NCBI GenBank assembly: GCA_003218375.1
Contig: QHNH01000030.1
Coordinates: forward strand, 1-64,000
DNA: 64,000 bases
Direction of reading: 5' to 3'
From: Verrucomicrobiota bacterium
GTDB taxonomy: Bacteria; Verrucomicrobiota; Verrucomicrobiia; Chthoniobacterales; UBA10450
In this document: positions 13,155 to 23,185 of the stretch, piece by piece
Numbering within the stretch: position 1 is the stretch's first letter
Layout: the number at the start of each line of letters is the position of its first letter
The notes under the pieces: model-generated
What the model saw: the letters and a program-made list of their open reading frames with translations, nothing else
The model's database searches: none
Told to the model about the DNA's origin: nothing
Made by a program: the position numbers and the translations under genes

Positions 13155-15659
13155 ATGTCCAAATCGCTCATCATCGCGGAGAAGCCCAGCGTGGCGAACG
13201 ATCTCGCTCGCGCGCTCGGCGGTTTCAAAAAAGTCGAGGACCACTTCGAGAACGAGAACTACATTATCTCGTCCGCGGTCGGTCATCTGGTCGAGCTCTG
13301 CCTGCCGAGCGAGCTCGATGTGAAGCGCGGGAAATGGAGCTTCGCCAATCTCCCGATCATCCCGGACGAGTTCGCGCTCAAGCCGATCGAGAAATCCAAG
13401 CCGCGCTTCAATCAGCTCAAACGCCTCATTCAGCGCAGGGACGTGACCGATCTGATCAACGCCTGCGACGCCGGCCGGGAAGGCGAGTTGATTTTCCGCT
13501 ACCTCGTCAAGCTGACCGGCAGCAAAAAACCGGTACGCCGGCTCTGGCTCCAATCGATGACGGCCGAATCGATCCGCTCGGCCTTTGCCCATTTGCGGAC
13601 GAACGAAGAAATGATTCCGCTGGCCAAGGCGGCTGTCTGCCGTTCCGAGAGCGATTGGCTCGTCGGCATCAACGGCACCCGCGCGATGACCGCTTTCAAT
13701 AATAAGGCCGGCGGCTTTCAGCTTACGCCGGTCGGGCGGGTGCAAACGCCTACGCTCGCGATCCTCACCGAGCGGGAAGAGAAGATCCGCGAGTTCAAAT
13801 CGCGGCCGTTCTTCGAAGTATTTGGCGACTTCGAGGTCAAAGCCGGGGAATATCGGGGCCGCTGGTTCCGCGAAGATTTCACCAAAAACGGCGACGAGGA
13901 TGCGCGGGCGGAGCGCATTTGGGAAGCGGCCGAAGCGGAAGCGATCCGGGAGCGTTGCCTCGGCAAGACTGGCATCGCTACCGAGGAAAAGAAGCCGACC
14001 ACGCAGGCCCCGCCGTTACTTTACGATCTCACCAGTCTCCAGCGCGATGCCAACGGGCGCGGCTTCAGCGCGAAGCGAACCCTCCAAATCGCGCAACAAC
14101 TCTACGAGAAGTTCAAAGTCATCACCTATCCGCGAACGGATTCCCGTTATCTCCCGGAGGATTACATTTCAACGGTCAAAGCGACGCTCGGGAGAATCCA
14201 GGACCCCGTGCTCGCCGCGCACGCGCGCAGGGCGATCGAGCTGGTGAAGCCGTCGAAGCGGATTTTTAACAACGCCAAGATTTCCGATCACTTCGCCATC
14301 GTCCCGAGCGGCGAATCGCCGCACGGTCACCTCGACGAAGTGCAGCAAAAGATTTACGACATGATCGTGCGGCGCTTCATCGCCGTCTTTTTCCCCGCCG
14401 CGCAATTCGAAGTGACGACGCGCATCACCCGCGTCGAGAAAGATGCGTTTCGCACCGACGGCAAGATCATCACCGATCCGGGCTGGCTGGCAGTCTACGG
14501 ACGCGAGGCTGCGCTGGGGGACGACGAAGGCGGCGCTTCGCTCGTGGCGATTTCGCCTAACGAATCGGCCAGGGTGCTCGAGATCGAAGTGAAACAGAAC
14601 GAGACCAAACCGCCCGCGCGTTTCAACGAAGCCACCCTGCTCTCCGCCATGGAAGGCGCCGGTAAACTCGTCGAGGATGAAGAATTGCGCGAAGCGATGG
14701 CGGCGAATGGCCTCGGCACGCCGGCGACCCGCGCGGCTATTATCGAAGGTCTGATCTACCAGGAATACGTGCGCCGCCAGGGCCGTGAGCTGATCGCGAC
14801 CGCGAAAGGCATGGCGTTGATCACGCTGCTGCGCGGGATCGGGGTGTCCGCGCTTTGTTCGCCTGAGATGACGGGCGAATGGGAGCACAAGCTGAAACAA
14901 ATTCAGCGGGGCGAAATGAAGCGGAAAGAGTTCATGGCCCAGATCAAGGATTTCACCCGCGAGATCGTCGAGAAAGCGAAGACCTTCGAAGGCGACAGCG
15001 TCACCGGCAATTTCGCGCCGCTCGAAGTGAAATGTCCGAAGTGCGGCGGCGGCCCGTTCGACGAGGACTATCGCACCTTCAAGTGTCGGAGCTGCGGATT
15101 GATCGTATGGAAAACAATGGCCGGAAGGTTGTTCGACCCCGGCGAAGTCGAAACTTTGTTGAAAGAGGGCAAAGTCGGTCCGCTCGAGGGATTCCGCAGC
15201 AAGATGGGCCGTCCGTTTACGGCCAGCGTAAAACTCGGCGAAGAATTCAAACCCGCGTTCGAATTTGAAAACACCGAGGGAAGCGGCGCCATCACGATCG
15301 ATCCCGCGCGGCACGAAGCGCTCGGTCTCTGTCCCGTTTGCCAGAAAGGCCAGGTCTACGCCTTGGATAATTCCTACGCCTGCGAAAACGCCGTCTCCGC
15401 CGAGAAAACCTGCACCTTCCGCGTCGGCAAAGTGATTTTGCAACGCGAGATCCCGAAAGAGCAGGTCCAGAAACTCATCACCACCGGCAAGACCGATCTC
15501 CTCCCGAAATTCATTTCCAAAAAAGGCCGCCCGTTCTCCGCGCACCTGAAATTGGAAAAAGGCAAAGTCGGCTTCGAATTCGCCGAGCGAGCACCGAAGC
15601 CGAAGAAAGCAGCCGCGAAGAAACCGCCTGTCGCAAAAACAGCGACGGAAGAGGTGTAG
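13155..15659 (+). CDS. topB: DNA topoisomerase III (type IA)
   Basis: The 834-residue enzyme relaxes and decatenates DNA through a transient 5'-phosphotyrosine. The Toprim domain starts LIIAEKPSVANDLA (residues 5-18) and has the acidic site DAGREGE (105-111). The active tyrosine is Y325 in ITYPRTDSRYL. C-terminally are a four-cysteine zinc motif (CPKCGGGPFDEDYRTFKCRS) and two Toprim-associated C-terminal repeats with RPFTASVKLG and RPFSAHLKLE, then a lysine/alanine tail. E. coli TopB lacks this long repeat tail; it is common in other phyla. No operon partner is visible. Confidence 0.93.
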   Translation: MSKSLIIAEKPSVANDLARALGGFKKVEDHFENENYIISSAVGHLVELCLPSELDVKRGKWSFANLPIIPDEFALKPIEKSKPRFNQLKRLIQRRDVTDLINACDAGREGELIFRYLVKLTGSKKPVRRLWLQSMTAESIRSAFAHLRTNEEMIPLAKAAVCRSESDWLVGINGTRAMTAFNNKAGGFQLTPVGRVQTPTLAILTEREEKIREFKSRPFFEVFGDFEVKAGEYRGRWFREDFTKNGDEDARAERIWEAAEAEAIRERCLGKTGIATEEKKPTTQAPPLLYDLTSLQRDANGRGFSAKRTLQIAQQLYEKFKVITYPRTDSRYLPEDYISTVKATLGRIQDPVLAAHARRAIELVKPSKRIFNNAKISDHFAIVPSGESPHGHLDEVQQKIYDMIVRRFIAVFFPAAQFEVTTRITRVEKDAFRTDGKIITDPGWLAVYGREAALGDDEGGASLVAISPNESARVLEIEVKQNETKPPARFNEATLLSAMEGAGKLVEDEELREAMAANGLGTPATRAAIIEGLIYQEYVRRQGRELIATAKGMALITLLRGIGVSALCSPEMTGEWEHKLKQIQRGEMKRKEFMAQIKDFTREIVEKAKTFEGDSVTGNFAPLEVKCPKCGGGPFDEDYRTFKCRSCGLIVWKTMAGRLFDPGEVETLLKEGKVGPLEGFRSKMGRPFTASVKLGEEFKPAFEFENTEGSGAITIDPARHEALGLCPVCQKGQVYALDNSYACENAVSAEKTCTFRVGKVILQREIPKEQVQKLITTGKTDLLPKFISKKGRPFSAHLKLEKGKVGFEFAERAPKPKKAAAKKPPVAKTATEEV

Positions 15660-15725
15660 CGTCGGCTGTCCCCAGCCGAAAGACTCCTTCCTCCGCTGAG
15701 ACAGCGGACTCTACAACGTGACGAC

Positions 15726-16190
15726 CTAGCGTCGCAGCTCGAGATGAACGTGGACGCTGCCGACCTGATTATTCAGGTGCGTTAGCTCGACATCGTCCGT
15801 GTACCAGACATCGAGATAATGGTCGCCGGTCCACTGGGCGCCGATTTTATGGGTCGTGGCGTTCCACGGAAACTCATAACCGGCGATTACTTCGGCTGAC
15901 GCCTCGCCGGGCGGCGATGCCGCCTTGCGAATGACGTTCAAGCGCGTGCTGGCCCGCGTCGTCGCGCCACAATCGCGCACATAAAGTACGGCCTTCAGCT
16001 TACCATCCGGCGAAGGGATTTCGCTGACGATCTGTTCGTTGCATCCACCACCAAGGAAAAGCGCCAGCTTGGAGTAATGGAGGAATAGGCTCGTGCCGAA
16101 GGTCAAGGTGAGCCCCCCTGCGAGAACCCAGAGGGCGACAATCGCAAACCGACGGGCGCGGCTAGACCTACGTCTCGGTTCTTCTACCAC
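15726..16190 (-). CDS. Hypothetical protein with one N-terminal TM segment
   Basis: The product is 154 residues. A basic start (RRRSSRARR) leads into one hydrophobic segment (about 15-38), then a predicted extracytoplasmic domain with a GGGCNEQI segment and LYVRDCGATTRAST. The two cysteines might form a disulfide. I recall similar short proteins of unknown function with a RDCGATT motif but cannot name the family. Confidence 0.6.
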   Translation of the reverse strand: MVEEPRRRSSRARRFAIVALWVLAGGLTLTFGTSLFLHYSKLALFLGGGCNEQIVSEIPSPDGKLKAVLYVRDCGATTRASTRLNVIRKAASPPGEASAEVIAGYEFPWNATTHKIGAQWTGDHYLDVWYTDDVELTHLNNQVGSVHVHLELRR

Positions 16191-16246
16191 GACTCAGATT
16201 ATCGATTATTGGAGCTTTTCCAAAAACGCATCCGGCGGGACAAAAA

Positions 16247-16843
16247 TGTAGAGGCGCTTGTGCCAAGCGCCTGATTCTTTTGGCTAGGTGCTTGGCACAA
16301 GCACCTCTACAATCTCTGCAACGCTTCCAGGCGGACGAGCTCGCCTTGATATGGCCATCCCTCCGGATCGCTAACAAGATTAGCCCTCACGGGATTTTCC
16401 CGGACGTATTCCCACTTCTGAGAATAGCTTTCACTATTCCGGATCAAATGATCAAAGAAGCCGCTTTGCCAATGAGGACGCTCGATGATGATGCTTTTCG
16501 ATAACTCGCGTTTCAAGAGTCGGACCCACTGAGCCAGAACAAAGTCGGTGCTACCGCGGACAAACAGATGCGCATGATCCGGCATGAGCACGTACCGGCC
16601 GACTCCGATGCCTCGCGATTCGCCGATGCTCGCGAAAGTTTTGAACCGTTCGTGGATTTTCGGATTAGCCAGGATATGACGACGCCTGTGGGTGTTGAAT
16701 GTAACGAAGTAGAGCGGCGCATCGTAGCAATCAAAGATTCGCTCAAGCCGCGGCGGTCGCTCCGGCATCAGATGTGACTGTAGAGGTGCTTGTGCCAAGC
16801 ACCTGTTTTCTTGGTTCAGGCGCTTGGCACAAGCGCCTCTACA
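16247..16843. mobile_element. REP/RAYT element: transposase flanked by paired REP palindromes
   Basis: Each end has an inverted pair of the same REP sequence (TGTAGAGGCGCTTGTGCCAA... and its complement): 16247-16273 with 16285-16311 on the left, and 16779-16806 with 16817-16843 on the right. Between them lies one tyrosine transposase gene. This is the classic layout of a RAYT with its own BIME/REPIN-like repeats. Confidence 0.88.
16307..16768 (-). CDS. REP-associated tyrosine transposase (RAYT, IS200-like HUH family)
   Basis: From the ATG at 16768 the product is 153 residues (a longer start at 16798 would lie inside the flanking REP). It has PLYFVTFNTHRRR, the HUH-type metal pair in VLMPDHAHLFV, a WQSGFFDHLIR segment, and the candidate nucleophile tyrosine in KWEYVRENPVRA. 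These enzymes cut single-stranded REP DNA and are thought to spread REP sequences. The stop codon TAG is supplied by the left REP palindrome (TGTAGAGG), so gene and repeat are physically joined. It appears intact. Confidence 0.9.
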   Translation of the reverse strand: MPERPPRLERIFDCYDAPLYFVTFNTHRRRHILANPKIHERFKTFASIGESRGIGVGRYVLMPDHAHLFVRGSTDFVLAQWVRLLKRELSKSIIIERPHWQSGFFDHLIRNSESYSQKWEYVRENPVRANLVSDPEGWPYQGELVRLEALQRL

Positions 16844-16846
16844 TCC

Positions 16847-17557
16847 TTACGGTTTTGCTGGCGGGGGCGGAGTTGCCGCCTTCTTAGCTTTCGGTTGGCG
16901 CTCGACGTGGCTGGCGGTGTGCCACTCGCCCATTCTCTCGGCGTTGGTCTTGTAGAAGTTGTGCATGAAGGCATTGAGCTGCTGCACCGTCTTCATCGCC
17001 TCCTTCAGGAGCGGCTCGAAGCCTTCGGTGGCGCCGGCGCGCACCTGTTTGCCGGTTTCCTTGGTGGTATCGGCGCCTCCGATCGCGCCGATGTGTGCCC
17101 GCAGATCGTCGACGAACGTGGAATCATGGCCGTAGAGGATGAAGTCGGCCGCCATGGCTTCGGCGGCGTCGGCGATGGCGCTGGCTTTGGCTGCGAGGAC
17201 GGCGTCCCCCACGCCGTAGGGCATCCGAAACTGGTCCATGATTTCCGGCGTCCCCTTGTCCTCCGCGATCGCGGCCGCGCTGCGATTGATCCCTTTCAGT
17301 TCCAGGAACAGGGCATTGCGCAGGACCGCCTTGGAAGTCGCGCCGCTGGCTTCGGTGCCTTCGCCGGTTTGCTGGCTTTGCGCGTTCTTGGCGATCTGGT
17401 CGATCAGGCCGGTATCTGGAGTATTGAGTTTGGCGAACAGATCGAGCACGAAACTGGTCGCCGGCGCGATAGGGATGGGAAAATCCGTAGCGTTATTGGT
17501 TCCGAAAGTGCCGACACGTTGGACGGCGTCGAAGCGCGCTTGTTCGCGAGCGTTCAT
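16847..17557 (-). CDS. Conserved hypothetical protein, 236 aa (leader-block gene 1)
   Basis: A soluble protein of 236 residues, alanine-rich and largely helical, with a proline-rich basic end. No signal peptide or motif I recognise. Its stop is three bases from the right REP of the RAYT element. Upstream, behind an AAGGAG Shine-Dalgarno, lies copy 1 of a promoter/leader block also found before the genes at 17707 and 18829, which suggests shared regulation. Confidence 0.65.
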   Translation of the reverse strand: MNAREQARFDAVQRVGTFGTNNATDFPIPIAPATSFVLDLFAKLNTPDTGLIDQIAKNAQSQQTGEGTEASGATSKAVLRNALFLELKGINRSAAAIAEDKGTPEIMDQFRMPYGVGDAVLAAKASAIADAAEAMAADFILYGHDSTFVDDLRAHIGAIGGADTTKETGKQVRAGATEGFEPLLKEAMKTVQQLNAFMHNFYKTNAERMGEWHTASHVERQPKAKKAATPPPPAKP

Positions 17558-17597
17558 AAGAATCTCCTTGGTTGAGTTTGGGGTTGAGGGTGCTCGA

Positions 17598-17700
17598 CCA
17601 CCGGAAGGGCGGGGAATCCAGGGGGATGCTCCGTTCTGTTCGGGGACGAATTTAGTTAACGGCCCGAGAGTAGCGGGAATTTTCTGAGCGTGTCACGAAC
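17598..17700 (-). promoter_or_regulatory. Promoter/leader block, copy 1
   Basis: Reading the minus strand: GTGACA (17696-17691), 18-bp spacer ending TTCCCGC, TACTCT (17672-17667), then a leader with GTTAACTAAATTCGTCCCCG and a C-rich segment ending CTTCCGGTGG. Copies at 18593-18695 and 19488-19569 keep the same hexamers and spacing; copy 2 also keeps nearly the whole leader. Confidence 0.65.
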
Positions 17701-17706
17701 AAACTT

Positions 17707-18570
17707 TCAGGATGGCGCGTTGCCTTTCCCGGGTGACGCCGCATCATCCTCCGTTTTCTTAATAATCGTCGGGACAAGTCGTTCGCTGGCTCCGGCAATG
17801 AGCGCGATGAAAATCAACGCCGGATGCCCAAAGGTCTTTAACATTCCGAGAATCAGGGAAAGATGGACGGCGAGGACGGCGAAAATCGCTCCGATGGCCC
17901 CGGCCACGACTCGCGCGCCGCCTTCGAGAAGATGCAGCCGTTCACCGGCAGATGGATCGAGAGAATTGGTTCCCAACCGCGTCAACACGGAAAACAGGGC
18001 GCCGACGGCGCCAGCGCAGACGCCAAGAAGAAGAATGAACGGCAGTTCCCCGAGCTTTGGGCGAAGGGCGCTGCGAGCCAGCCAGGCGATGGAAGCCAGG
18101 ATGAAAAATGCGGCTGCTATCCAAGCTGTTCCCTTGAGTTGCCAACCCCGTGCGATTTCTTGATTGCGTGCTGATACGTAAGCGCCAGCGGCATTCATCA
18201 TCTGCAGAGCGTTCTTCGGGTCCAAACTAAAGAGGCGGGCGAAACCTTCGCCCATCATTAGGCGAAAATTCTCCTGCTGGGAATCGGTCAGGTGCTCTAT
18301 TGGCATCGCACAGATTTCCGTCGAACGGTTATGAACCGCTCCAACCTCTGCGGGGGCGAGTGCATTGAGGGCGATATCTATGGACGACATGGTTTGCCAC
18401 CCCAAATGGCCATCGGCCCCCAGATACACAATGAATTCGGTCGTCGCAAAGATTAGCCGTTTGATCGGCAACGGCTTCCAGAAATCTTCGTAAACAATGA
18501 CCTCTGTTTTGGGCTTGACCGTGGGTGGTGATGTTCCGATAGGCGGTGTTACTTCGGCTGGATCGGCCAT
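17707..18570 (-). CDS. Hypothetical membrane protein, 287 aa (leader-block gene 2)
   Basis: An N-terminal soluble domain of about 145 residues is followed by four hydrophobic segments (around residues 148-166, 175-196, 220-240 and 245-265), then a polar, glycine- and proline-containing tail. This looks like a cytoplasmic sensor or regulatory domain fused to a small membrane bundle. No family recognised. It carries copy 2 of the shared promoter/leader block; copy 1 begins seven bases beyond its stop. Confidence 0.65.
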   Translation of the reverse strand: MADPAEVTPPIGTSPPTVKPKTEVIVYEDFWKPLPIKRLIFATTEFIVYLGADGHLGWQTMSSIDIALNALAPAEVGAVHNRSTEICAMPIEHLTDSQQENFRLMMGEGFARLFSLDPKNALQMMNAAGAYVSARNQEIARGWQLKGTAWIAAAFFILASIAWLARSALRPKLGELPFILLLGVCAGAVGALFSVLTRLGTNSLDPSAGERLHLLEGGARVVAGAIGAIFAVLAVHLSLILGMLKTFGHPALIFIALIAGASERLVPTIIKKTEDDAASPGKGNAPS

Positions 18571-18592
18571 AGGAGGGTTACCTCAGTTACGC

Positions 18593-18695
18593 CCACCGGA
18601 AGAGCGGGGAACCCAGGGGGATGCTCCGTTCTGTTCGGGGACGAATTTAGTTAACGGCGCGAGAGTAGCGGGAAATTTCGTGACATGTCACGAAA
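18593..18695 (-). promoter_or_regulatory. Promoter/leader block, copy 2, with a perfect 20-bp palindrome
   Basis: It has the same elements as copy 1: GTGACA (18691-18686), 18-bp spacer, TACTCT (18667-18662), then the conserved leader. Here the -35 region lies inside a perfect palindrome at 18676-18695 (TTTCGTGACATGTCACGAAA), a likely operator. The other copies keep only one half-site. Confidence 0.65.
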
Positions 18696-18828
18696 AAACT
18701 TTCGAAAGCAAGGGATAACGAACGCCGAAATCGGCTGGCGGCTACCAAGGCGGCGTGGGTCTTGTTTACACGACTCTCAGTCGAGCAAAATTGCAATGGG
18801 AGCAGATAATGCGGTCGCGTTAAGTGCA

Positions 18829-19491
18829 TCACTTGGATCCGGCCGGGGATAGAAATTCATATGTCGCAGCTTCTATCTGCAACCGCTCACTGCCGAACAT
18901 TGTGAGTTTACCGTGCACCTTGATCCGGTCGCCTGACTTCAGGCTCGACGCTGGCGAGCCTTCAACGAAGCGCGCAGCAAACAATGCTGCAGAATCTAGA
19001 CGCGATCCATCTTTCTTGTAGGAGAAGCTCCAATCACCTGGGCTGAACTGAGATCGAAGAGTTATTTCCCAATCGACCTCCTTGTCGACGTATCGTCGAA
19101 GAAAATCTCTTTGTTCCGCGTCGCGACCAGCGCGCATTGCGTACCCATCCTCGATTTCGTTCCAACCCAAGGCCTGGACCTCGGGGACGGTCAATTCGCG
19201 AATTCTTTGATCGCGATTCGCGATGGCGGCAGTCAACTCGCTGTTAGTTGTCTTGAGCGCTACATTTTCGTCATGCAGTGACATCTTTTCGCTTGGGACG
19301 AAAAAAATCTGCATTGCAAGGAATGTAAATGTGCATCCGACAGAAAAGGCGCTAATCAATCCGGGAAATTTGGACTTAGCAAAACGTTTAATCGCCGGCC
19401 AAACCTTCCTACGCCGGGAAACTTGTCTCTTCGGCTTCGATGGAAGAGCAGTTGTGTTTTGGTCGGCGGGGGCTGGGGGCGCGGGTTCCAA
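18829..19491 (-). CDS. Hypothetical membrane-anchored coiled-coil protein (leader-block gene 3)
   Basis: The product is 220 residues from a TTG at 19491. A proline-rich start and a strongly basic stretch (KRQVSRRRKVW) lead into one TM segment (about 45-65). A short coiled coil (EKMSLHDENVALKTTNSELT, then IANRDQRIREL) comes next. The C-terminal region reads like a beta domain (SGDRIKVHGKLTMFGSERLQ), perhaps OB-like. The start codon lies at the end of copy 3 of the shared leader, so the 5' untranslated region is short and without an obvious Shine-Dalgarno. Function unknown. Confidence 0.6.
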   Translation of the reverse strand: MEPAPPAPADQNTTALPSKPKRQVSRRRKVWPAIKRFAKSKFPGLISAFSVGCTFTFLAMQIFFVPSEKMSLHDENVALKTTNSELTAAIANRDQRIRELTVPEVQALGWNEIEDGYAMRAGRDAEQRDFLRRYVDKEVDWEITLRSQFSPGDWSFSYKKDGSRLDSAALFAARFVEGSPASSLKSGDRIKVHGKLTMFGSERLQIEAATYEFLSPAGSK

Positions 19492-19569
19492 GGGAAATCT
19501 TCGTTTTGCGGGGGAGAATTTATTTAACGGCGCGAGATTAGCGGGAAATTTGCGGGCGTGTCACGAAAA
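19488..19569 (-). promoter_or_regulatory. Promoter/leader block, copy 3 (most diverged)
   Basis: GTGACA (19564-19559), 18-bp spacer ending TTTCCCGC, TAATCT (19540-19535), then GCGCCGTTAAATAAATTC. The leader is shorter than in the other copies and runs into the TTG start of the 220-residue gene. Confidence 0.6.
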
Positions 19570-19651
19570 AAATAACTTCGTGCAAAGAAGCCCGCGTTCT
19601 GGAGGACAAGGTCCCATCCGTTTGCTCGCTAGTCAGGACGCCTGTTTCGAA

Positions 19652-20668
19652 CTATTTGACCTCTGCGATTTCTTTGATGGTATCATAATACACGTAGCCT
19701 TGGCCGTTCTTGATCGAAAGGTCGCAATCGTTGGCTTTGGCGTACAACGAGTTTTGAACGTAAAAATGAATCTTCTTGTCAGCACACTCCAATACGATGT
19801 TGCCGGCCTGATTGTTCGTGATAACGCGCAGTTTACGATTTCTCCAAGACTGATGCGCTAGCTGGCCGGACGATGCACAGCCGAAAAATGTGATTTGGGG
19901 TTTTACAACGTCGAGGAAATCAAAACTGCGCCCCGATTTGCGTCCGTGATGCGGAGCAAAAAGTACCGAACAATTCTCGATATCACTTTTGTAATGCTTC
20001 GTCACGTAATCCCACGTCTCGTCATGCGCATCACCCGGAATCAAGATGCGTCCACCGGTGGTTCGATAAAGTAAGACGTATGACGCGTCATTTATGTCGC
20101 CGCTCTTGTTCGCGGCGGCGACTAGGTCTTTATCAGGAGCGAGAATATATAGCCCGTCAGGCCCGGCTGCGCCTTCGACTGCCTTGTTTGCATAAGCAAA
20201 AGAACTTCCAGCGAGCGGATTAATGACCCTTATGTCGGATTCTGCACCACCATACACGCGAGCATAACGGTCCCAGTCCTCTTCCTTGTATTGGCAACAT
20301 TCCTCAAAGTCAGGTTTTTCCCTTCGGATTCTAGAGTCCCAAAAATTTGTGATCCCAAGTTCATCCATGAGCTTATCAAAGCCATCCAAGTGATCCATAT
20401 CCGGGTGTGTTAGAATGAAACGAAATATTGATTCGATCCCCAATGTCTCGAGATAAGTGATCGGATTGGTCGGTTTCTTCGACATCCCAAAATTCCCGAG
20501 AACGGCGGACGCTGCCTCGTCCAGCGCCTCAAGAATTGATGCTTGTGCTGTTTTCTTCTCGAGCACATGATTGCCTTTGCAGATGTCCACCACAGAGGCC
20601 CGGCCCGAATTGTGTTGAATGACAGTGCAATCTCCTTGCCCAACATTCAGAAAATGTACGGTTGCCAT
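19652..20668 (-). CDS. Metallo-beta-lactamase-fold hydrolase, ComEC/Rec2-like
   Basis: The product is 338 residues without a signal peptide. It opens with VHFLNVGQGDCTVIQ, as in ComEC-type MBL domains. The metal site is THPDMDHLDG (87-96), an HxDxDH motif, and later LIPGDAHDE and FAPHHGRKSG supply further ligands. The C-terminal part (HQSWRNRKLRVITNNQAGN) resembles the end of stand-alone ComEC-like hydrolases. These act on phosphodiesters or nucleotides; substrate unknown. It lies four bases after a membrane-protein gene, so the two are almost certainly cotranscribed. The accessory location suggests a defence or stress role, but that is inference. Confidence 0.8.
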   Translation of the reverse strand: MATVHFLNVGQGDCTVIQHNSGRASVVDICKGNHVLEKKTAQASILEALDEAASAVLGNFGMSKKPTNPITYLETLGIESIFRFILTHPDMDHLDGFDKLMDELGITNFWDSRIRREKPDFEECCQYKEEDWDRYARVYGGAESDIRVINPLAGSSFAYANKAVEGAAGPDGLYILAPDKDLVAAANKSGDINDASYVLLYRTTGGRILIPGDAHDETWDYVTKHYKSDIENCSVLFAPHHGRKSGRSFDFLDVVKPQITFFGCASSGQLAHQSWRNRKLRVITNNQAGNIVLECADKKIHFYVQNSLYAKANDCDLSIKNGQGYVYYDTIKEIAEVK

Positions 20669-20672
20669 ATCG

Positions 20673-21392
20673 CTACTTCGGCGAGCGAACGTTTCCGACG
20701 GCCATAAATTCCGAAATCAACTGTCGTGCATAAGCTTCTGCGTTCTGGAAAAGAAGGGCCCTGTGAAACATCAAAAGCGTCGAGTAAATCACTAAAAGGA
20801 TCGCTGAAGCGATAACCAATGGATCGCTCTTAAGAACCATGAGTCCGAGAAGGATATTCACACAGCAAAAGAGCGACGAGTAAATCGCCCCGCCAAGTAA
20901 GTTCCTGGTAAACCCGTACCAGATGTTATGTTTTAGCACGAGCTTCCCAGGGCCTACCTTCAGTCGGATGTGATTGATGCATTCATTCAATCGATTCTTC
21001 GCTTCTAGTGGCTGAGAGTGTTCATCCGCTTCGTCGAGTAGGTCTAGTTTGCATATGGCCTTTACGCGGGCGCGGAACTTGGCCTTGTAATCCTTTGAAT
21101 ACGTTGTGTCGTGGAATAGCATAAAGTATGTCGTCGGGAAGCCGCGCCTGGATGTGAAGTATCGTCGTTCAAACCATTTCGACGTGTACCGGAGAAAGTG
21201 GGAGTAGAAGTACAGAAATACTGCCGAGAGGGAAATCGCGCCGAGGAATCGCAGGCTAAAAACGAAGGTTAATAGGCCCCTCCACTCGGCGTCACGCCGA
21301 ACGAAATACCAAAGAACAAATAACGGCGTAGCTGATATTAGAGCCGGTAGAGTGCGGGCGTACAGAGAATAGGTATCAGGTTTGAGTGTCAT
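20673..21392 (-). CDS. Four-TM hypothetical protein, partner of the MBL hydrolase
   Basis: From the ATG at 21392 (MTLKPDTYSLYARTLPALIS) the product is 239 residues; an upstream start at 21446 is less likely. Two hydrophobic segments lie near the N-terminus (about 14-32 and 45-68) and two near the C-terminus (about 175-195 and 200-220). Between them is a charged cytoplasmic-looking region of about 100 residues. This 2+2 layout resembles membrane effectors in some bacterial conflict systems, though I cannot assign it to a named family. It overlaps nothing upstream and leads the two-gene unit. Confidence 0.65.
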   Translation of the reverse strand: MTLKPDTYSLYARTLPALISATPLFVLWYFVRRDAEWRGLLTFVFSLRFLGAISLSAVFLYFYSHFLRYTSKWFERRYFTSRRGFPTTYFMLFHDTTYSKDYKAKFRARVKAICKLDLLDEADEHSQPLEAKNRLNECINHIRLKVGPGKLVLKHNIWYGFTRNLLGGAIYSSLFCCVNILLGLMVLKSDPLVIASAILLVIYSTLLMFHRALLFQNAEAYARQLISEFMAVGNVRSPK

Positions 21393-21490
21393 CGCGAGGC
21401 TCGGGTTGGGGGCTTTCCACTCTTGGCGATCTGTCGTGGCTCGCACGATCGCTAGTCGTTAATAGATTGACTGGGTTTGAGGCAGAGCGC

Positions 21491-21659
21491 ATCACGGCCA
21501 GATCTTTTTCAGGATCGCGGCGAGGCGATAGCCGGCGCGAGCGATCTCGGTACGGACCTGGGCAGAGGACCATTGGTCGTAGCCGGGGAGATCGATCGTT
21601 TGAGGGTTCGGGTGAGGATTCAAGTGTTGGAGATGACGCAGGGGTTTGAAAGCACCGTT
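21491..21659 (-). pseudogene. C-terminal fragment, possibly of an S1/P1-type nuclease
   Basis: After an in-frame stop, 55 codons end in IDLPGYDQWSSAQVRTEIAR followed by AGYRLAAILKKIWP and a stop. The final AGxRLAxxLxxIW pattern resembles the last helix of S1/P1-family zinc nucleases. The rest of the gene is missing, so this looks like the scrap of a deleted gene. The family name is a recollection from a short match. Confidence 0.4.
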
Positions 21660-21719
21660 TTACACACTCGCAATTTTGATTGCACGCTCTAAGAATCCGC
21701 ACGGTTGATTGTTCACACC

Positions 21720-21832
21720 TGGCCCACGCCGCAGCAGTTTTTGTATTTTCGCTTGCTGCCGAAGGGGCGGGGCGGGGGTTTGAGGATGGAGAAATAGAGG
21801 ATGGAGGGCGGACGGATCCGCCTTTGCCAAGG
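21720..21832. repeat. Low-complexity spacer sharing sequence with 22640-22740
   Basis: CGCCGCAGCAGTTTTTGTAT (from 21727) recurs at 22668, and both copies are followed by GAGGATGGAG-type purine-rich repeats. The stretch 21393-21832 holds no intact gene, only this repeat and the nuclease-like fragment. Confidence 0.55.
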
Positions 21833-22165
21833 CTACGGCGTGACAGGGGTCTGTGGGGCGGGCTCGCGGGTGTAGAGCACGATTCCAACGCGGCGAATGT
21901 GATCGATTAAAGCGGGGTGTTTCAGCCCGGAGAAAAGGGAGAGATCGATCTTGTAAGGCAATAGGAGGTCGTCTAACGCCCAGTAGATGCGCGACATGAC
22001 GTTGTCGGTTAGTCCATCTCCAAACAAAGTAAGATCGATGTCGGAGCCGTTGCGATAATTGCCTTTCGCGCGCGAGCCGTAGAGCAGGGCCTTTTCCACT
22101 TCAGGAAAACCCGCGAGCACGGATTTGATGCGAGCGACCGTATCTGACGAAAGGCCGTGGCTCAT
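21833..22165 (-). CDS. MNT-family nucleotidyltransferase (antitoxin of HEPN/MNT pair)
   Basis: The product is 110 residues, the size of minimal nucleotidyltransferases (MNT, HI0073-like). The signature GSRAKGNYRNGSDIDL has the G-S-x10-D-x-D catalytic pattern. The gene overlaps the upstream HEPN gene by four bases. In characterised HEPN/MNT pairs the MNT protein adenylylates the HEPN toxin near its active site and blocks it; assigning that to this pair is inference. The C-terminus ends in a proline/threonine tail next to a repeat. Confidence 0.85.
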   Translation of the reverse strand: MSHGLSSDTVARIKSVLAGFPEVEKALLYGSRAKGNYRNGSDIDLTLFGDGLTDNVMSRIYWALDDLLLPYKIDLSLFSGLKHPALIDHIRRVGIVLYTREPAPQTPVTP

Positions 22166-22593
22166 TCGCCTTCTTCTGCTCCAATTTTGTTCAGGGTGTC
22201 GCGCAGCTTTTCAAACTCGGTCACGTAACGAGTAAGAATATCCTGGGTCATTCTGTCTGCCGTCGCTTCGTCGTAAGTGTGAGTGGTGGCGTTCCGGCTT
22301 TCGAGCATCTTCATCCAGATCTGACCGTCCTCGATGAGATCGGCGGCGAACGCCTCCCGCGTGGCATCGCGCGCACCGTAGATCCGGGCGGTATTGCCGC
22401 GGCGCGCAAGGAAGTCTTTCAGGGTATTCCAAGCGAGCTCGTGGGTGAATTCGAACGCTTGAATGAGTCCCTGTTGCTCAAGCTTCGATAGCGGGCGCGT
22501 GCGCGCCAACTCGGCCGCGCCCAGCAGCTGGGCCAGCGCCTGCTGGAAGTTCTCGAAGCGCTGCCGCCAACGCACGTCTGGATTCTGGGCCAT
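22162..22593 (-). CDS. HEPN-domain protein (HI0074-like, toxin of HEPN/MNT pair)
   Basis: The product is 143 residues, mainly helical. The family pattern is AFEFTHELAWNTLKDFLARR in the middle and SRNATTHTYDE later. The latter contains the Rx4H motif (R-N-A-T-T-H) seen in HEPN ribonucleases. The older name is nucleotidyltransferase substrate-binding protein. It is translated first and overlaps the MNT gene. A TTTCCCGCTAAGCTC element lies just upstream, similar to the -10 regions of other minus-strand genes here. Confidence 0.85.
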   Translation of the reverse strand: MAQNPDVRWRQRFENFQQALAQLLGAAELARTRPLSKLEQQGLIQAFEFTHELAWNTLKDFLARRGNTARIYGARDATREAFAADLIEDGQIWMKMLESRNATTHTYDEATADRMTQDILTRYVTEFEKLRDTLNKIGAEEGE

Positions 22594-23185
22594 CTTTCAG
22601 AGCTTAGCGGGAAAGGGTTCGGCTCGCAGCGAAATTTTGGGCCGTGGCAGCGTCACGCCTGAGCCGACGCCGCAGCAGTTTTTGTATTTGCTTTGGATGA
22701 CGCAGGGAAGAGGAAAGCGAGGATGGAGGATTGAGAATAGAGGATGGCGGGTAGGCCGGGAGGCGGAGGACCAAGGGCTAATAGCGAAGTTCCGTGCCAA
22801 GCATGGCGCGGGAAGGGTCAAGGACGGCGCTGCGGAGGTTTTCGATGGAATTTGAGGGGTCGAGGACGGAGTTGGGCAGACAGAGGATCGAGGATGGAGG
22901 GTCGAGGATGGGGGTGAGCGGAGCGAAGACGGGGGAAGCGCCGACGAATGAGGACGTAGCGGGGCCGAGGAGGCGATTTGCGTGCTCGAGGAACGCGCGG
23001 GAGCGCGCGAAAGTTGCGATCTGAGGAACGAAAGTTGGGTTTTGGCGCTCGAGGACCCGCCTTCTCTGAAGCTACGGCGTGGCGAGGAGGTCGGAAGGCG
23101 GAGGGCTGAGGTCCGAGGACGGAGGCCGGAGGGCGGAGAGAAGGTTCGACGGCCGGAGGCCGCCGCTACAGAAGACAAAAAGCGT
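22594..23185. repeat. 634-bp gene-free spacer with GAGGATGGAG-type repeats
   Basis: The sequence is strongly purine-biased on the plus strand, with many degenerate units of GAGGATGGAG, GGAGGGCGGA and GAGGACGGAG. It includes the block shared with 21727 and ends in GGCCGGAGGCCGCCGCTACAG. Long open frames on the minus strand are serine/proline/arginine-rich products of this composition and not credible genes. No RNA gene recognised. Confidence 0.6.

Follow-up and report, generated by a model that had tools for sequence, protein, structure and literature searches.

The analysed window comprises 64,000 nucleotides of contig QHNH01000030.1 from a Verrucomicrobiota bacterium of the order Chthoniobacterales. 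Between topB and nrdR it contains a variable region in which three unrelated neighbouring genes are each directly preceded by one minus-strand copy of a block of 95-115 bp, consisting of two promoter-like boxes and a leader (Table 1). A first-pass annotation, made from the sequence alone, had placed three such copies at 17598, 18593 and 19488. All three were recovered, and these positions correspond approximately to the low-coordinate (3′) ends of the block.

Table 1. Block copies, downstream genes and surrounding variable region in the window.
Feature	Position	Strand	Remarks
Block copy 1	17595..17708	-	Promoter-like boxes and leader, 5′ of gene 1; GTGACA 17696-17691, TACTCT 17672-17667
Block copy 2	18590..18703	-	5′ of gene 2; GTGACA 18691-18686, TACTCT 18667-18662
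Block copy 3	19477..19573	-	At the start of gene 3, overlaps its TTG start codon; GTGACA 19564-19559, TAATCT 19540-19535
Gene 1	16847..17557	-	236 aa, soluble and helical; family with scattered members in Verrucomicrobia and Accumulibacter; probably the gene to which the block first belonged
Gene 2	17707..18570	-	287 aa, four predicted TM segments; stop codon overlaps copy 1
Gene 3	18829..19491	-	220 aa, one TM segment; TTG start inside copy 3; very weak C-terminal OB-fold-like match
topB-nrdR variable region	15618..23176		Holds the three block-gene units and other accessory genes

The two boxes had been described before as GTGACA and TACTCT/TAATCT with an 18-bp spacer, and this architecture was found in all three copies, with a distance of exactly 18 nt between the boxes in each of them. 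Copies 1 and 2, previously reported as nearly identical over 100 bp, share 106 of 115 bases (92%), and copy 3 is 78-80% identical to both over 97 bp. Local alignment of the copies resulted in scores of 181, 88 and 90, compared to a maximum of 29 for shuffled sequences (300 shuffles, run for the pair of copies 1 and 3). The leader motif that had been assigned to the whole set occurs in its exact form (GTTAACTAAATTCG) only in copies 1 and 2, whereas copy 3 reads GTTAAATAAATTCT and thus differs from it by two mismatches. The flanks of the three copies are unrelated, and the shared unit has a length of approximately 110 bp. Since copy 1 shares its first bases with the stop codon of gene 2, one junction lies at the edge of the block.

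For the products of the three genes, no family above the cut-off was obtained from Pfam or NCBIfam. Hydrophobic segments were predicted as none for gene 1, four for gene 2 and one for gene 3, which is in agreement with the earlier description of unrelated proteins (soluble, four-TM and TM-bearing). The predicted fold of the gene 1 product is helical (pLDDT 74), and the best match in the PDB had an E value of 0.21, which was not accepted as a structural relative. Upstream of distant gene-1 relatives the block is absent, and these relatives also have no conserved partner gene. Two of the gene-1 relatives (L053 and L055) are approximately 95% identical and have similar neighbourhoods in differently named MAGs (Chthoniobacteraceae and Prosthecobacter debontii); one of the bins may be mislabelled or the region may have been transferred recently.

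The genome of the window (3.96 Mb in 52 contigs) was searched for further copies of the block. Only the three copies described above were detected, all in promoter position, together with matches of chance length; a scatter over many non-promoter places, as expected of an ordinary repeat, was not found. A sequence model of the block was built from six copies and run on 83 genomes of the family and 213 genomes of the order. The block is present in 4 of the 213 order genomes, namely that of the window and three others of the same genus (G002, G006 and G007) with one copy each. Weak matches of the model in G031, G061 and G069 (E values of 0.004-0.04 per genome) were rejected, as they are at chance level for 83-213 genomes and the inspected sequences do not contain both boxes. 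In collections of phages, plasmids and viral contigs, the block was absent. Each of the six copies is located 5′ of an ORF in the same orientation, and no family is common to the six ORFs. A wider class of sites, defined as TTCGTGACA-N18-TANTCT with up to two mismatches, was counted in eight genomes after exclusion of the six block copies. It occurs at 52 places versus 33 for the reversed control, which is a modest excess.

Among the six copies, TTCGTGACA is invariant and the second box reads TACTCT in five cases and TAATCT in one. The spacing of 18 nt is likewise kept in all six, with a T-tract 5′ of the first box. The sequence of the spacer has diverged, with a mean identity of 52%. In the most distant pair, G002 versus G006, 19 of 19 box positions and 3 of 18 spacer positions are identical (Fisher p 9e-8). 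Upstream (5′) of the T-tract, the identity drops to 28%, which corresponds to random sequence. A sigma-70-type promoter is expected to keep its spacing fixed while the spacer sequence is free to vary, and from this conservation we infer a promoter role of the block, from which the downstream genes would be expressed. Measured against the E. coli consensus TATAAT, the second box is a poor match, with TACTCT and TAATCT agreeing at only 3 of 6 positions, and a consensus promoter scan reported nothing at the block copies. The tRNA-Ser gene of the same genome is preceded by TTGACG-N17-TATCCT, whose second box has a similar shape; as far as one example can tell, a TAxTCT-like box is therefore not odd for this organism.

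The three genes had been interpreted as a small regulon built by block duplication. The duplication is supported, as three unrelated genes share an upstream unit of about 110 bp whose flanks are unrelated. A regulon going beyond three genes that share a promoter-like segment did not emerge, since no further members were found and a candidate regulator palindrome over the first box of copy 2 (TTTCGTGACATGTCACGAAA) was discarded, its right half being unconserved in the other copies.

The sequences following the block in the related genomes point to its former context. Behind the G002 block come a ribosome-binding site and 13 initial codons of gene 1 (37 of 41 nt), after which unrelated sequence begins. 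In G006, approximately 35 gene-1 codons (89 of 118 nt; 57-61% identical) precede a GNAT-type gene. A weak remnant of the gene-1 start was found in G007 (31 of 41 nt, exceeding each of 300 shuffles), located approximately 300 nt 3′ of the second box and followed by an unrelated gene of 238 aa. A remnant of the probable original gene between the promoter-like block and the new gene is thus clear in G002 and G006 and weak in G007; after copies 2 and 3 of the window such a remnant was sought and none was found. As starts of gene 1 follow the block in relatives, the block is most simply explained as the promoter and leader of this gene, and judged by the compared sequences it probably holds this role for the gene-1 family. 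This probable ownership rests on three relatives, the G007 remnant being weak. The gene now behind the block in G002 has a 68% relative elsewhere in the genome of the window, where it carries no block. In G002, the block with the start of gene 1 would therefore have come before an older gene.

In this genus, the interval between topB and nrdR is a hotspot for accessory genes. It measures about 0.07-0.26 kb in G002, G004 and G005 (about 70-180 bp in G002 and G005) and approximately 1 kb in G001 and G003. The intervals holding the block extend over 7.6 kb in the window, 7.2 kb in G007 and 3.7 kb in G006. Five of the six block copies are located inside this hotspot, and the G002 copy lies elsewhere. 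The filled intervals carry accessory, partly defence-like genes. The window has an MBL-fold protein and a nucleotidyltransferase pair, G007 an Eco57I/MmeI-type methyltransferase, and G006 a TIR-domain protein together with a GNAT-domain membrane protein.

Several further features of the region were recorded. The MBL-fold protein (window 19652-21446) was matched by PADLOC PDC-M48B with an E value of 6e-35 and, below the cut-off, by 6A-MBL and ComEC of NCBIfam. Its neighbour within the same coordinates belongs to no known family and is predicted to have three TM segments, and the two genes could possibly form a defence pair. The nucleotidyltransferase and its substrate-binding partner (Polbeta / NTase_sub_bind; 21833-22593) are of a pair type seen in toxin-antitoxin systems, and a 54% relative of this NTase_sub_bind partner is encoded in the G007 hotspot. 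A gene for a Y1 transposase of the REP-associated type (16307-16798) adjoins gene 1. Similar short sequences are located on both sides of the transposase gene (16243-16846) and also match places in G003. The topB protein (13155-15659) is 90-94% identical to its counterparts in G005 and G002, whereas other members of the genus have proteins of only about 50% identity at the same place, which suggests, from sequence comparison, replacement by a distant homologue.

Taking these data together, we consider it likely that the block is a promoter with a 5′ leader, probably once belonging to gene 1, that was reused before unrelated genes. Gene 1 would have been an accessory gene of the genus with the block as its promoter and 5′ untranslated leader. 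In the window, local duplication or recombination would have put further copies before genes 2 and 3, giving each of the three genes a similar start signal of its own. In the relatives, the promoter, the leader and the first codons of gene 1 would have been kept and the remainder of gene 1 lost, so that the promoter would now be 5′ of another gene. Copy 1 groups with copy 2, and copy 3 is nearest to the copy of G007 (86% identity versus 78-80% to copies 1 and 2), so that at least two separate events would be needed; the bootstrap support for these relationships is modest (69-73) with a very short alignment. The copies may have arisen by local duplication, by the promoter moving alone, or by promoter-gene units integrating at a resident promoter.

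The last of these routes leads to a different, rather doubtful reading, in which the block itself is a docking sequence. Incoming promoter-gene DNA would recombine homologously at a resident copy, and the hotspot would grow unit by unit, with the copies flanking the acquired genes as direct repeats. The tandem arrangement of block-gene units, the 92% identical repeats on either side of gene 2, the stop codon of gene 2 abutting copy 1 and the position in a variable hotspot all agree with such a process. However, efficient homologous recombination generally calls for longer stretches than 110 bp at 78-92% identity, and the phages, plasmids and viral contigs yielded no donor element carrying the block.

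It is very unlikely that the leader acts as a conserved regulatory RNA or as the source of a leader peptide controlling the three genes jointly. The leader is well conserved among copies 1, 2 and that of G007, and a GGAG-like site followed by TTG or CTG recurs. The thermodynamic and covariation analyses proposed along with the first-pass annotation did not support a structured leader: the z-scores for folding ranged from -1.5 to +1.3, which is no better than shuffled sequences, and 0 of 8 predicted pairs covary. An Rfam search of the window returned a tRNA only. A small leader peptide was rejected by inspection, as the reading frame after TTG/CTG differs among the copies.

Slightly less probable still is a MITE- or REP-like origin, with the block as a small mobile element or repeat that is intergenic by chance. 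The block is a repeated unit with sharp edges, and the Y1 transposase gene of the REP-associated type next to gene 1 would be compatible with this origin. There are, however, just three copies in the genome, all 5′ of genes and with the same orientation and placement with respect to them; the conservation is of promoter type, and terminal inverted repeats or target duplications were not seen by eye. An integron-like array of cassettes recombining at the block, as unrelated codirectional genes with a repeated element between them might indicate, can practically be dismissed, since the element is located 5′ of each gene and contains promoter boxes, and its leader folds no better than shuffled sequences.

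Beyond the reuse of the gene-1 promoter as such, the resident promoter-leader could be viewed as a landing and expression platform of the accessory, partly defence-like hotspot, behind which incoming genes would have been placed repeatedly by gene replacement or promoter duplication. This extension is speculative and we regard it as improbable. Newly acquired genes need a promoter that is functional in the host, and if the platform existed, unrelated incoming genes would be immediately and uniformly expressed.

The case fits promoter reuse, which is a known process, and it is an unusually readable example and not a new kind of system. With six copies of one promoter-like segment before six unrelated genes in close genomes, and with remnants of the probable original gene, the sequence allows steps of promoter reuse to be traced. 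Putative mobile promoters have been described as repeated promoters 5′ of non-homologous genes (Matus-Garcia, Nijveen and van Passel, 2012, doi 10.1093/nar/gks787, as cited in PMC9208149 and PMC8049555). The block resembles them in being an upstream segment of 78-92% identity that occurs at least twice in one genome before non-homologous genes, a likeness by description and not by the formal thresholds of these authors. In contrast to them, all copies of the genome are adjacent in one hotspot here, and relatives keep the start of the apparent original gene. In promoter capture through deletion or tandem duplication, a gene gains an existing promoter as the intervening DNA is lost or rearranged (PMC11111574). 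In G002 and G006, the truncated starts of gene 1 are similar to this, although they are sequence remnants and not cases selected in an experiment. In horizontal regulatory transfer or regulatory switching (Oren et al., 2014, as described in PMC9944727), a gene can receive a new regulatory region without being exchanged itself, which is a shared trait. There, the intergenic region between the same genes gives way to a non-homologous one, whereas here one region serves several unrelated accessory genes.
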